Notes under the pieces: generated by a model | Database searches by the model: none | What the model saw: the letters and a program-made list of their open reading frames with translations, nothing else | What the model was told of the DNA's origin: nothing | Shown: one piece after another, positions 4,834 through 36,859 of the stretch | Position numbering within the stretch: the stretch's first letter is position 1 | Layout: each line of letters opens with the position of its first letter | DNA from: Chloroflexota bacterium | Lineage (GTDB): Bacteria > Chloroflexota > Limnocylindria > P2-11E | Assembly: GCA_005889405.1 (NCBI GenBank) | Contig: VBFY01000014.1 | Coordinates: 1-64,000 of the forward strand | Reading direction: 5' to 3' | DNA: 64,000 bases | Program-made: the position numbers and the translations under genes

Positions 4834-5811
4834 GTGCTGCTTGTCAGCGGTGATTTCGCGCGCCGAACGGGCGGCAACCTCTATGACCGGCATATGGAGC
4901 ACGCCTGCCGGAGCGCGGGCGTGCCGCTGAGGATCATCTCGGCCCGCTCGACAGCGCATGCGCGGTCGGAGCTGGCGCGTCTTCGTCCACGGGTCATCGT
5001 CATCGACAGCATCGCGATCCCGGTCGCCGCGCCGCTCGCGCATTGGGCACAGACGGAGCTGGGCGCGCGCGTGATCGTGATCATGCACATGCCGACGAAC
5101 GCGCGCGGGACGCGAGCGCTCCTGCGAGCGGCCGACAAGGTCGTTGCGGTCAGTCTCAGCCTGGCGCGCACGCTCGGCGTGCCGCGTTCGCGTCTCACGA
5201 CGATCCCGCCTGGCCGCGACGGCGTCCCGCGCGCCGCGCGGAGAGCGCGCGGGCGGCGCGACGACGCCGTGCTACGCGTGCTGTCGGTCGCGAACTGGTC
5301 GTCGTCGAAGGGCACCGCGACGCTCGTCGCGGCCGCCGCGCGGGTGCCGGAGGTACGCCTGGATCTCGTTGGCGACAGCGGCGCGGGCGCGTACCGCGCC
5401 GAAGTCCTCGCGCGGATCAGCGGGATCGGCGCTCGCGTGGTCATCCACGGGGCGCTCGGCGCAGCCGCGCTCTCGCGACGTTATGCCGAGGCGGACGTCT
5501 TCGCACTGCCGACGGAACGGGAGGGATACGGGACGGTCTTCGCTGAAGCGCTCGAGCACGGCCTACCGGTCATCGGGTCGAACATCGCGCCGGTCCGCGC
5601 CATCGTCGGCGATGCGGGTCTCTTCGTCCCGCCGCGACGCCTTCGTCCTCTCGTCATTGCGCTCAGATTGATGAGCGACACGTGGCTGCGACGCAGGCTC
5701 GCGCGGAACGCGCGGAATCGGGCGCGCGCGTTACCGAGCTGGGCGGGCAGTCAACGCGTGTTCGTCGCTCTCGTCACGCACGAGATGCGTGCGGCCATTG
5801 CCAGCCGGTGA
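4834..5811 (+). CDS. Glycosyltransferase family 4 protein
   Basis: About 325 aa, GT-B fold. The N-terminal Rossmann half starts LLVSGDFARRTGGN with the Gly-rich acceptor loop. The C-terminal donor half has VLSVANWSSSKG, HGALG, and the E-x7-E nucleotide-sugar site in LPTEREGYGTVFAEALEHG. GTG 4834 is 8 bp after the dehydrogenase stop, with no room for an independent promoter, so it is the third gene of the 2464-5811 operon. A glycosyltransferase beside GTP cyclohydrolase genes recalls the glycosylated pterins of cyanobacteria and green sulfur bacteria; that is inference only. Confidence 0.88.
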   Translation: MLLVSGDFARRTGGNLYDRHMEHACRSAGVPLRIISARSTAHARSELARLRPRVIVIDSIAIPVAAPLAHWAQTELGARVIVIMHMPTNARGTRALLRAADKVVAVSLSLARTLGVPRSRLTTIPPGRDGVPRAARRARGRRDDAVLRVLSVANWSSSKGTATLVAAAARVPEVRLDLVGDSGAGAYRAEVLARISGIGARVVIHGALGAAALSRRYAEADVFALPTEREGYGTVFAEALEHGLPVIGSNIAPVRAIVGDAGLFVPPRRLRPLVIALRLMSDTWLRRRLARNARNRARALPSWAGSQRVFVALVTHEMRAAIASR

Positions 5812-23259: not shown

Positions 23260-24657
23260 TTACCGGGCGGTGTGGATCGGTCTCCCCCGCGCGACGAGCG
23301 CGGCCTCGCGGAAGGTCTCGGCGAGGGTCGGGTGGGCGTGGATCGTGGCGATCACGTCGTCGGTGGTCGCCTCGAGCCGCATCGCGAGCGTCGCCTCGGC
23401 GATCAGCTCGCTCGCCTGCGGCCCGACGATGTGCACGCCGACGATCCGCTGGTCCTTCCCCGCCGCGACGATCTTCGTCACGCCTTCGCTCTCACCGAGA
23501 GCGCGCGCGCGACCGGACGCCTTGAATGAGAAGCGCGCGACCTTTACGTCGTCGCCGTACTTCTCCTTCGCCTGCGCCTCGGTGAGCCCAACCTGAGCGA
23601 TCTCGGGATGCGTGTAGACGACGTTCGGCACGGCGTCGTAGTCCATCGCGGCATCTTCGCCGAGGATCGTGTCGACCGCCACCTCGCCCTGCGTCGACGC
23701 GACATGCGCGAGCTTCGGAGCGCGCGGGTCCCCGATGCAGTCGCCGATCGCCCACACGCCCTTGACGCTGGTGCGCATGTGCTCGTCCACCGTGATGCCC
23801 AGCCGGTTGGTCGCGAAGCCCGCCTGCTCGACGCCCGAGTAGTTCGCGACGCGGCCGGCGCCCAGCAGGACCTCGTCGCCTGCGAACGTCTTCGACGACC
23901 CGCCGACATCGGCCGTCACCTTCACGCTGCCGTTGGAGCGCAAGACTTCGGTCACTTTCGCCTCGGTGACCACCGTGATGCCGCGAGACTGCAGCGCCCG
24001 CACGAGGAGGCGCACGAGCTCGGGGTCCGCGTAGGCGATCGGCTGCGCGAGCATCTCGACTACGGTGACCTCGGAGCCGAGCTCAGCGAAGAAGGTGCCG
24101 AGCTCGAGTCCGATCGCGCCGCCGCCGATGACGATGAGCCGCTTCGGCGGGGTCGTCAGCGAGAGCGCGGCGACGTTGTCGAGCGGCTTGGACTCGGCGA
24201 GGCCCTTGATCGGCGGTACGCCCACTTTCGATCCGGTTGCGACGATGACATTCTTCGCATCGATCGCCTGCTCGCCGTTCGCCGTGCGTAGCTTGAGCTG
24301 CGTCGGCGACACGAGCGTGCCGTCGGCCTTGATCAGATCGACCTTGCGCGCCTTGAGGAGCTGCTCGACGCCCGCGACGTTCTGCGCGACGACCGCGTCC
24401 TTGCGCGCCACGGCCTTCGCGAGATCGAAGCGCGCGCCCTGGACGATGATCCCGTGCTCTTCGCCATGCGTCGTGACCCAGTACGCGTGGCTCGAATCGA
24501 GGAGCGCCTTCGACGGGATGCAGCCCACCGTCACGCAGATGCCGCCGACGCGGTCGCGTTCGATGAGCGCGACTCGCGCCCCCTTGATGCCCGCGTGAAG
24601 CGCCGCGACGTAGCCACCGGGACCGCCGCCGAGGATGGCGATGTCGTACGGCGTCAC
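23260..24657 (-). CDS. lpdA: Dihydrolipoyl dehydrogenase (E3)
   Basis: About 465 aa. The FAD loop is ILGGGPGGYVAALHA and the redox disulfide is in GGICVTVGCIPSK. The NAD loop is VIGGGAIGLELGTFF, the second FAD block is GVWAIGDCIGDP, and the interface His-Glu pair is in HAHPTLAETFREAAL. It re-oxidises dihydrolipoamide of the 2-oxoacid dehydrogenase or glycine-cleavage complexes; none of their other subunits is in the window. GTG 24657 overlaps the stop of the small HExxH gene (GTGA), so the two are coupled. Confidence 0.94.
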   Translation of the reverse strand: MTPYDIAILGGGPGGYVAALHAGIKGARVALIERDRVGGICVTVGCIPSKALLDSSHAYWVTTHGEEHGIIVQGARFDLAKAVARKDAVVAQNVAGVEQLLKARKVDLIKADGTLVSPTQLKLRTANGEQAIDAKNVIVATGSKVGVPPIKGLAESKPLDNVAALSLTTPPKRLIVIGGGAIGLELGTFFAELGSEVTVVEMLAQPIAYADPELVRLLVRALQSRGITVVTEAKVTEVLRSNGSVKVTADVGGSSKTFAGDEVLLGAGRVANYSGVEQAGFATNRLGITVDEHMRTSVKGVWAIGDCIGDPRAPKLAHVASTQGEVAVDTILGEDAAMDYDAVPNVVYTHPEIAQVGLTEAQAKEKYGDDVKVARFSFKASGRARALGESEGVTKIVAAGKDQRIVGVHIVGPQASELIAEATLAMRLEATTDDVIATIHAHPTLAETFREAALVARGRPIHTAR

Positions 24658-24905
24658 GTGAAAAGCGTAGCCACTTCAGATGCGTCGCGCTCCAATGGAT
24701 GTGCCGCGTATCCATGTTTCGCGTACAGCCGCAGGTACAGCGGGAGGAAGGCGAGCCCGATGCGCTCGTATTGCCTCACATGTCGGAGCTCGTGTCGCCA
24801 GAGCGCGTCGGTCGGTTCGCGCGCGAAGATCACCACACGACCGAACGTGATCGCGGAATAACCTCGACGCGTGAGCACGAGATGCGCCAGACCTCGGTCG
24901 CTCAC
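24654..24905 (-). CDS. Small HExxH protein (minimal zinc-peptidase-like domain), start uncertain
   Basis: The region from GTG 24905 encodes 83 aa with HELRHVRQYERIG, a classic HExxH zinc helix as in DUF4157-like small metallopeptidases. The frame stays open upstream to about 25056. The upstream translation (GHVLGWLSFARPRFRDG, then CFLYV) looks like genuine family sequence, but it has no ATG, GTG or TTG. Either a rare codon (for example ATC 24969-24971) starts it, or a 1-base frameshift separates it from ATG 25012, which overlaps the selenoprotein stop as ATGA. Its function is unknown. It is coupled to lpdA downstream. Confidence 0.6.
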   Translation of the reverse strand: MSDRGLAHLVLTRRGYSAITFGRVVIFAREPTDALWRHELRHVRQYERIGLAFLPLYLRLYAKHGYAAHPLERDASEVATLFT

Positions 24906-25008
24906 GTAGAGAAAGCAGCCGTCGCGGAACCGCGGACGCGCGAACGACAGCCAGCCGAGAACGTGTCCGATCGGATCGGCGTGATGAGCGACTAGCTCGC
25001 GCGCCGGC

Positions 25009-25326
25009 TCATTGCTCGATGCTATCGACGACCGCCTGAACCGCCGCGGTCACCCGCGCTGCGTTCGTGACGCGCGGATCGAAGCGTAGCGTGAGCTTCC
25101 GGTCCAGCGCCACCATGCTCACGCTCACCACTCCCTCGATCTTCCTGCAATCCGTCACGACCTGTGACGCACAGGAGCTTCACATCAGGGCCGATATCTC
25201 GAGCGAGACCTCTTCGACATCCGCGGCGTCAGCCGTCGCAGGCGCGCGCTGCGCGCCGCCCGGGGTCAACACCGGCGAGCCGCATGCGACGACCGCCGCC
25301 AGCAAAAGGAAGGGCGCCAAACGCAC
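25009..25326 (-). CDS. Predicted selenoprotein: HMA-domain lipoprotein with U-S-S-C motif (in-frame TGA = Sec49)
   Basis: A single frame of 106 codons runs from GTG 25326 to TGA 25011-25009, interrupted only by TGA at 25182-25180 (codon 49). Residues 1-15 are a lipoprotein signal (APFLLLAAVVAC). After a short linker, residues 38-105 match a heavy-metal-associated domain: VSLEISALM, then [TGA]SSCASQVV, KIEGVVSVSMVAL and LTLRFDPRVT. In HMA proteins the motif is GMxCxxC, and the TGA stands exactly at the first Cys, giving U-S-S-C. A SECIS-like hairpin starts 3 nt after the TGA. Read as Sec, this is an exported metal-binding or thiol-redox protein. The alternative is a nonsense-mutated pseudogene. 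Confidence 0.82.
25143..25176 (-). promoter_or_regulatory. Bacterial SECIS-like element directly downstream of the in-frame TGA
   Basis: On the minus strand the lower stem TCCTG (25176-25172) pairs with CAGGA (25147-25143). The upper stem CGTCAC (25169-25164) pairs perfectly with GTGACG (25158-25153). The apical loop is AGGTC (25163-25159), and 16 nt separate the TGA from it. The E. coli fdhF SECIS has the loop AGGUCU at nearly the same distance (17 nt). A small G-containing loop on a short stem at this spacing is what SelB recognises in bacteria. The extra bulged U of fdhF is absent. Confidence 0.8.
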
Positions 25327-25350
25327 CGTGTGATTGTGCGCTTGGCGCCC
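25312..25350 (-). terminator. 15-bp hairpin spanning the selenoprotein start codon (terminator or attenuator)
   Basis: In the minus-strand RNA, GGGCGCCAAGCGCAC (25350-25336) pairs with GUGCGUUUGGCGCCC (25326-25312), with one G-U pair and a 9-nt loop. The 3' arm begins with the GUG start codon of the selenoprotein and is followed by UUCCUUUU. It could terminate the csbD-like transcript or control read-through and translation of the selenoprotein gene. Confidence 0.6.
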
Positions 25351-25373: not shown

Positions 25374-25592
25374 CTAGCGGTCGACGTCGTCGACCGGACG
25401 GTCCTCCTTGAGCTCGCCGATGCCCTGCTTCACCTTGCCCTTGGCTTGGTCGAGCTTGCCGCCGATCTCGGTCGAGCGATCGCCGCCGAGCTTGCCGGCC
25501 TCTTCCTTGACCTTGCCCTTGACCTCGTCGAGCTTGCCCTCCATCTCGAGCTCTTCGCCTGTCTTGTCCTTCATGTGTGTCTTGTCCTTCAT
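25374..25592 (-). CDS. CsbD-like stress protein
   Basis: About 72 aa, highly charged. It contains the CsbD repeat-like helices GKLDEVKGKVKEEAGKLGGD and GKLDQAKGKVKQGIGELKED. GGAGGG lies 6 nt before ATG 25592. The first six codons are tandemly duplicated (MKDKTH-MKDKT; an 18-nt direct repeat at 25592 and 25574), so the gene has two in-frame starts. CsbD proteins are sigma-B or general-stress induced in Bacillus; the molecular function is unknown. Confidence 0.85.
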   Translation of the reverse strand: MKDKTHMKDKTGEELEMEGKLDEVKGKVKEEAGKLGGDRSTEIGGKLDQAKGKVKQGIGELKEDRPVDDVDR

Positions 25593-35826: not shown

Positions 35827-36859
35827 CGCACCCGGGCCGAACGTCCCGTTCCCGCCGCAGGAGGCGGAGCTGGTCGAGGAGATCCCGACCGGGCCGAAGT
35901 GGCAGTACGAGCCGAAGTGGGACGGCTTCCGCGGCGTGCTCGAGAACGACAACGGCGAGCTCGCGCTGTGGAGCCGCAATGGCCGGCCGCTGCTGCGCTA
36001 CTTCCCCGAACTGCGCCCACTCGGCGATCTCCTCCCACCCAACTCCGCGCTTGACGGTGAGATCGTCATCGAACGCGAGGGATCGCTCGACTTCGACGCG
36101 ATGCAGATGCGCCTCCATCCGGCGGAGTCGCGCATCCGCAGGCTCGCGGCGGAGACACCGGCGACGTACATCGCGTTCGACGTCCTGCTCTGGAATGGGG
36201 AGCCCGTGCACGAGAAACCTCTCGCGGAGCGCCGGAAGACACTTCTCGATGTCGCGAAGGGCTTCACGCTTTCCGTCACGACGACCGACCTGACGACGGC
36301 GAAGCACTGGCTGGAACGGCTGGAGGTCATCGGCCTCGACGGGATCATCGCGAAGCGCATCGATGCCGTGTACAAGCCGGGGTCGCGCGAGGTCGTGAAG
36401 AAGGTCAAGTACCACAAGACGTGCGACTGCGTGATCGTCGGCTACCGCACGAACGGCGAGAAGATCGCGAGCCTGTTGCTGGGCCTTTATCGCGAAGACG
36501 GCACGCTCGACTTCGTCGGGCACACGTCCGGGATCGCCGGGCCGCTTCAGAAACAGCTGCAACAGATGTTGCCGCCGCTCAAGGAGGAGGGCGCGCTCGG
36601 CTTCGACCCGAGCGAATGGGGTCGCACGCCCGACGCCGGGTCCCGTTGGTCGCAAGGAAAAGATCTGCCGTGGCATGAGATCCGGCCCGAGCTGGTGTGC
36701 GAGATCCGCTACGACAAGATGGAGGATGAGCGCATCCGGCATGGCACGCGCTTCCTACGCTTCCGCCCTGATAAGGATCCGAAGCAGTGCACCTGGGACC
36801 AGGTCCGCCCGCGACCGAAGAGCGGCGACCCGGTGCTCGCGGAGCTGCTGAACACCTAG
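35813..36859 (+). CDS. ATP-dependent DNA ligase, stand-alone LigD-type ligase domain
   Basis: About 348 aa. The catalytic lysine is K35 in YEPKWDGFR (motif I). Motif III-like sequence is in TYIAFDVLLWNG, motif IV in LDGIIAKRIDAVY, and motif V in VVKKVKYHKTCDCVIVGY. An OB-fold follows (WHEIRPELVCEIRYDKM). This is the ligase part of bacterial NHEJ LigD without polymerase or nuclease domains; the polymerase part is at 40010. ATG 35813 is inside the permease gene, a 14-bp overlap. Confidence 0.92.
   Translation: MSVPNAPGPNVPFPPQEAELVEEIPTGPKWQYEPKWDGFRGVLENDNGELALWSRNGRPLLRYFPELRPLGDLLPPNSALDGEIVIEREGSLDFDAMQMRLHPAESRIRRLAAETPATYIAFDVLLWNGEPVHEKPLAERRKTLLDVAKGFTLSVTTTDLTTAKHWLERLEVIGLDGIIAKRIDAVYKPGSREVVKKVKYHKTCDCVIVGYRTNGEKIASLLLGLYREDGTLDFVGHTSGIAGPLQKQLQQMLPPLKEEGALGFDPSEWGRTPDAGSRWSQGKDLPWHEIRPELVCEIRYDKMEDERIRHGTRFLRFRPDKDPKQCTWDQVRPRPKSGDPVLAELLNT

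Follow-up and report, generated by a model that had tools for sequence, protein, structure and literature searches.

A candidate selenocysteine-containing lipoprotein with a heavy-metal-associated domain in uncultured soil Chloroflexota

The SECIS element of E. coli fdhF is a hairpin positioned directly after the UGA codon, with GGU in its loop. Bacterial SECIS elements have been modelled with an upper stem of 4-16 bp, a loop of 3-9 nt with G in the first two loop positions, a spacing of 16-37 nt and an energy of -7.5 kcal/mol or lower (PMC13188914). The same 2026 inventory contains 119 prokaryotic selenoprotein families, including three related to the heavy-metal-associated (HMA) domain: a UxxU metal-binding protein (NF041115), an E1-E2 ATPase with UxxC and a MerT-type protein. 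NCBIfam additionally holds a MerT/CopZ fusion (NF045683), and a selenocysteine (Sec)-containing MerP is listed for Global Ocean Sampling data (PMC2398784). A lipoprotein UxxC HMA family was not found in the selenoprotein lists compared, these three sources among them. An earlier note on the DNA studied here stated that it knew of no lipoprotein HMA domain with a well-described Sec form. This is nearly right: no lipoprotein UxxC family was found listed, but other HMA-type Sec forms are known or predicted. The family described below is a new selenoprotein family of this already known type, the Sec HMA proteins.

The gene is located in the window, by which we mean the whole stretch of 64,000 nucleotides that was analysed (positions 1 to 64,000 of contig VBFY01000014.1). 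The source genome (G000) comprises 3.05 Mb in 114 contigs, and is 96% complete and 4.6% contaminated. The earlier note had described a minus-strand frame from GTG to TGA with a single internal TGA, which replaces the first Cys of a CxxC motif within one HMA domain that continues on both sides. The frame and its internal TGA were found as described (Table 1), and the sequence bears out the domain. The protein reads VRLAPFLLLAAVVACGS...SALM-U-SSCASQVV...DSIEQ, and its GTG start aligns opposite the ATG of the orthologues from G001 and G013. The residues VVA-C, with Cys at position 15, agree with the lipobox pattern [LVI][ASTVI][GAS]C; the lipobox Cys is present at the equivalent place in most orthologues and missing in G008 and G154. 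Standard gene callers split this gene into pieces. From comparison with related sequences, we consider it highly probable that the UGA at 25182 is decoded as Sec in an exported HMA-domain lipoprotein.

Table 1. Positions of the features in the window, with the evidence or detail for each
Feature	Positions	Strand	Detail
HMA-domain lipoprotein gene	25009..25326	(-)	GTG 25326 to TGA 25009, 105 aa + stop, internal TGA read through
Lipoprotein signal peptide	25282..25326	(-)	signal AAVVA-C with lipobox VVA-C, lipidated Cys15 at 25284-25282; from sequence
Predicted Sec49 codon (UGA), UxxC position 1; Cys52 is the second position	25180..25182	(-)	TGA in 4, TGC/TGT in 12 orthologues
Predicted SECIS upper hairpin, CGUCAC-AGGUC-GUGACG	25153..25169	(-)	16 nt past UGA; 6-bp stem CGTCAC (25169-25164) and GTGACG (25158-25153), 5-nt loop AGGTC (25163-25159); conserved in TGA forms
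Two-part hairpin as drawn in the earlier note	25143..25176	(-)	lower stem TCCTG 25176-25172 with CAGGA 25147-25143, in G000 only
15-bp hairpin followed by T-rich tract	25312..25350	(-)	25350-25336 with 25326-25312; contains the GTG start codon
csbD-like gene, upstream conserved neighbour	25374..25592	(-)	
Small HExxH protein gene (eCIS_core-like), downstream conserved neighbour	24654..24905	(-)	
Dihydrolipoamide dehydrogenase-like pyridine nucleotide-disulphide oxidoreductase gene (lpd), conserved neighbour	23260..24657	(-)	

The structure of the protein was modelled with AlphaFold2 using nine aligned sequences. Residues 38-104 were well modelled (pLDDT mostly 74-90) in the order beta-alpha-beta-beta-alpha, which agrees with the HMA pattern beta-alpha-beta-beta-alpha(-beta) and places the (C/U)xxC motif in the first loop. 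With this model as query, Foldseek matched HMA domains, the best hits being CopA and MerP (for MerP 1osd, TM 0.76 by target, 27% identity). The score against PF00403 was 22.0 bits, and 24.3 bits for the orthologue L021, with a gathering score of 24.8. The protein is thus a divergent member of the HMA superfamily by its modelled fold and not by curated score.

We then compared the protein with the described Sec HMA proteins. Like NF041115, the type of the Olavius algarvensis symbiont "putative mercuric reductase", it consists of one small HMA domain whose metal motif is predicted to contain Sec, and its decoding would rely on SelB/SECIS. Unlike NF041115, it carries a lipoprotein signal and a UxxC rather than a UxxU motif, and it scored 27.7 bits against this model (cut-off 95). 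With MerP it shares the exported HMA fold and the CxxC site. It differs from MerP in being lipid-anchored and in scoring 26.6 bits where TIGR02052 demands 92.55; the adjoining genes are csbD, the HExxH gene and lpd and not those of a mer operon. The MerT/CopZ fusion-like heavy metal transport selenoprotein NF045683 also contains an HMA-type domain, but is a transporter fusion of 235 positions; the window protein, which has no membrane transporter part, scored 17.9 bits (cut-off 375). The cation-transporting E1-E2 ATPase (PMC13188914) is likewise a metal-transport protein with UxxC, but a large membrane protein, whereas the window protein is a free 105-aa lipoprotein.

When the window protein itself was used to search for related loci, no match was obtained. 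An alignment of the Cys type as query yielded eight named Chloroflexi MAG loci, and the nearest named relatives with the gene are soil "Chloroflexi bacterium" MAGs. No relative of the gene was found among the PLSDB plasmids. In all, 16 orthologous sequences were found, among which the (C/U)xxC motif is invariant. The homologue alignment suggested in the earlier note showed TGA at the column of the first Cys in four sequences (G000, G015, G027 and G154) and TGC or TGT in the other 12. The four TGA forms span three genera and two taxonomic families: G015 belongs to the genus of G000 and its sequence is 73% identical, G027 comes from a different genus, and G154 from a different family within the order. 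An in-frame UGA opposite Cys, which we looked for in at least two independent sequences, is therefore present in the family.

Concerning the machinery for Sec decoding, the search proposed in the earlier note found all four components in the source genome. SelB was identified at 341 bits (cut-off 242), SelA is encoded directly upstream of selB (PF03841, E=4e-101; TIGR00474, 384 bits), and a tRNA-Sec with anticodon TCA is present on contig C48. SelD (333 bits) is encoded with one in-frame TGA (L131, G000:C99:38989-39909). Among 28 genomes of the family, selB was present in 24 and selD was found in 21; tRNA-Sec was present in most, with the TCA anticodon confirmed in G015, G027 and G001. The selD gene was not found in G027, an 80%-complete MAG. 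As the machinery recurs across the family, Sec decoding is general in the lineage and not the contribution of a stray contig. In this Chloroflexota family SelD is a selenoprotein in its own right: each of the 21 genes has exactly one internal, in-frame TGA, followed in all 21 genomes by a hairpin with an AGGU loop like that of the HMA gene, 31 nt after the UGA. We also considered the possibility that the UGA of the HMA gene is decoded by the SelB route, yet with insertion of Cys (sulphur for selenium) or another residue, as in recoded Sec systems. Most orthologues have Cys at this position, and Cys would therefore work. Nevertheless, the canonical SelA, the TGA-bearing SelD and the normal UCA anticodon of tRNA-Sec make this very improbable, and favour Sec as the residue inserted.

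The hairpin reported in the earlier note, with an AGGTC loop starting exactly 16 nt after the TGA, was present. It had been drawn in two parts, only one of which is conserved: the upper 6-bp stem is kept among the TGA forms, while the lower stem of 5 bp is disrupted in G015 and replaced by other pairings in G027 and G154, so that a conserved lower stem was rejected. In each of the TGA forms the stem has 6 bp, the loop has 5 nt and the spacing is exactly 16 nt, and all 24 pairs examined (six in each of four sequences) can form. The sequences are CGUCAC-AGGUC-GUGACG in G000 and G015, CGCUAC-AGGUG-GUAGCG in G027 and CGCCAC-GGGUC-GUGGCG in G154, giving the loop consensus [A/G]GGU. These dimensions, the loops AGGUC, AGGUG and GGGUC, and energies of about -8.5 kcal/mol or lower lie within the published SECIS model. 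None of the 12 Cys forms has the hairpin, as they retain 1-4 of the six pairs compared with six of six in the TGA forms. With regard to compensatory changes, which the earlier note had proposed to look for, two stem pairs have changed on both sides among the TGA forms, a number that dropped to zero when the pairing partner was slid by 1-3 columns; this covariation rests on four TGA sequences, and the shuffle control is weak, with 23 of 500 shuffles reaching the score. Compared with the fdhF-type SECIS, the hairpin is similarly located right behind the UGA, at a similar distance and with GGU in the loop, but its spacing is at the short end (16 nt) and no lower stem is fixed across relatives.

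We examined how often such hairpins occur by chance. The two strands of the window together contain 1381 TGAs. A 6-bp stem closing an AGGT loop, at a distance of 16-37 nt, follows a TGA in two places only, the SECIS hairpin being counted for two overlapping upstream TGAs. The other, behind the TGA at 36291, was dismissed because no plausible protein is found in frame. In 13 related loci, which contain 4448 TGAs, such a hairpin follows at this distance in about 0.1% of cases. Shuffling of synonymous codons indicated an unusually stable hairpin in G000 only. A competing hairpin, CCUGUG-CGU-CACAGG, shows no compensated pair and is disrupted in G015; it is therefore not the selected structure. For G027, free RNA favours a different hairpin of 8 bp (-10.7 versus -8.5 kcal/mol); its 5' arm starts 2 nt past the UGA and would sit inside the ribosome.

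The gene order csbD, HMA gene, HExxH gene and lpd is kept in comparable loci, including those of G015 and G027, and the G154 locus retains the HExxH gene and lpd. The conserved order indicates that the Sec and Cys forms represent one gene at a single locus. No mer or cop genes flank the HMA gene, and the neighbours (CsbD, the small HExxH protein and the dihydrolipoamide dehydrogenase-like flavoenzyme) point to no single metal. A search of the genome for a MerT partner gave no match, nor did any control genome match for that family, so that this negative carries little weight. The HExxH gene itself has probably been called too short; relatives conserve HHADPIGH..GxLSFARPRFRDGCFLYV upstream of its GTG, and the extended region in the window, at about 24905-24990 on the minus strand, has no clear start codon. 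The HExxH gene occurs without the HMA gene in several other genera of the family and in G014 of the same genus. In G019 (L166) a signal-peptide-like start is the sole remnant of the HMA gene, and in G010 (L174) an internal deletion has joined its first codons to its last ones.

The absence of the gene from several genera and the deletion in G010 show that it is dispensable, which would fit a TGA that is a nonsense mutation or a sequencing or assembly error in a Cys-type gene, leaving a pseudogene. The codon is nevertheless TGA in four genomes, which represent three genera from two taxonomic families, and only the TGA forms have retained the hairpin. In addition, the frame past the TGA is uninterrupted and evolves under purifying selection: over the 55 codons after the TGA, pN was 0.155 and pS 0.352 between G000 and G015 (Fisher p=0.008), a level of selection resembling that before the TGA. 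The excess of pS over pN indicates that translation extends past the UGA and that the part following it is useful. As both the in-gene stop and the RNA signal recur in related genomes, the gene appears to encode a real selenoprotein and not to be broken, and we regard a pseudogene as extremely improbable. Neither situation that the earlier note had named as speaking for a mutation or read error was encountered, since the Sec machinery is present and relatives share the TGA together with a hairpin that has compensatory changes.

A second RNA structure, the 15-bp hairpin, covers the start of the gene, the GTG forming the first three bases of its 3' arm. In 11 orthologues, 93% of the aligned positions in this hairpin pair, and seven of the 15 pairs have changed on both sides; none of 500 shuffles reached the covariation score. 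In G026 and G027 another inverted repeat takes its place. The hairpin probably serves csbD as an intrinsic terminator, into which the beginning of the HMA gene extends, and expression of the HMA gene may possibly be gated by this terminator. A start codon buried in a stable hairpin suggests that expression is low or conditional. This, together with the general inefficiency of UGA recoding in bacteria, would agree with the UGA acting as a regulated stop, where the main product is a truncated lipoprotein of 48 aa and read-through with Sec is a minor, selenium-dependent regulatory event. Such a product would lack the entire HMA domain, and selection acts past the UGA; we accordingly find a regulated stop exceedingly unlikely, and Sec incorporation into a full-length protein is the reading that we retain. 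An alternative code in which UGA is sense everywhere was rejected, because neighbouring genes and the HMA gene itself end in TGA.

When the two states are mapped onto a tree built from three neighbouring proteins of 14 genomes, Sec and Cys must have changed into one another at least twice. The Sec form probably arose early in the order and has been swapped with Cys at least twice. An old Sec form is favoured because the SECIS element is found at the same place in G154 and in family f1, although plain parsimony counts also permit about three gains. A broader scenario, in which Sec is ancestral in the order, the Cys forms are later replacements in which the SECIS was lost, and expression of the gene depends entirely on reading through the csbD terminator, seems to us rather doubtful when taken as a whole. 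If it were true, one short gene would combine an RNA hairpin that gates the start of its transcription or translation with another that recodes the UGA.

The results suggest the following mechanism. SelA and SelD would make Sec-tRNA(UCA), and SelB would bind the [A/G]GGU hairpin loop and deliver Sec at the UGA while the ribosome is located 16 nt before the loop. The predicted product is a small, exported, lipid-anchored HMA protein (ferredoxin-like fold) with a Sec-x-x-Cys metal site. Judging from the fold and the motif, metal binding or thiol redox chemistry is a reasonably likely role for the UxxC site; outside the membrane it may bind a soft metal (Cu+, Hg2+ or Cd2+) or carry out thiol/selenol redox reactions. 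Sec would act as a stronger or more reactive ligand than Cys, and the CxxC orthologues may do the same job without selenium.

A sample of 400 genomes of the phylum yielded further TGA-bearing HMA genes. Genomes G453 (L216, near 5553-5798) and G498 (L217, near 5119-5328), from another Chloroflexota family, encode membrane-anchored HMA proteins with TGA at the first Cys of CxxC, an N-terminal membrane segment and, 17 nt downstream of the UGA, a hairpin with a GGUC loop. They differ from the window family in sequence group and neighbourhood, are related to it only distantly (below 50 bits against its profile), and probably represent a second group of UxxC HMA selenoproteins. G284 (L218:24-257) harbours a MerP-like gene in which TGA takes the place of the first Cys of CxxC and which lies upstream of a gene resembling mercuric reductase; it is cut by the contig end, and a clear SECIS loop was not seen in it. 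TGA thus occupies this Cys position in G453, G498 and G284 as well, and exported HMA domains with Sec appear to be recurrent in the phylum. Five TGA-bearing ATPase matches (L106, L203, L209, L219 and L220) were set aside, as the TGA precedes the gene start and is not at the Cys of the motif.

The lipoprotein adds a well-supported selenoprotein family to uncultured soil Chloroflexota, on whose selenoproteome we found little literature. The occurrence of one gene in both a Sec and a Cys form, at a single locus and within two genera, is a natural experiment on the benefit of Sec at a metal-binding or redox site and on the gain and loss of SECIS elements.
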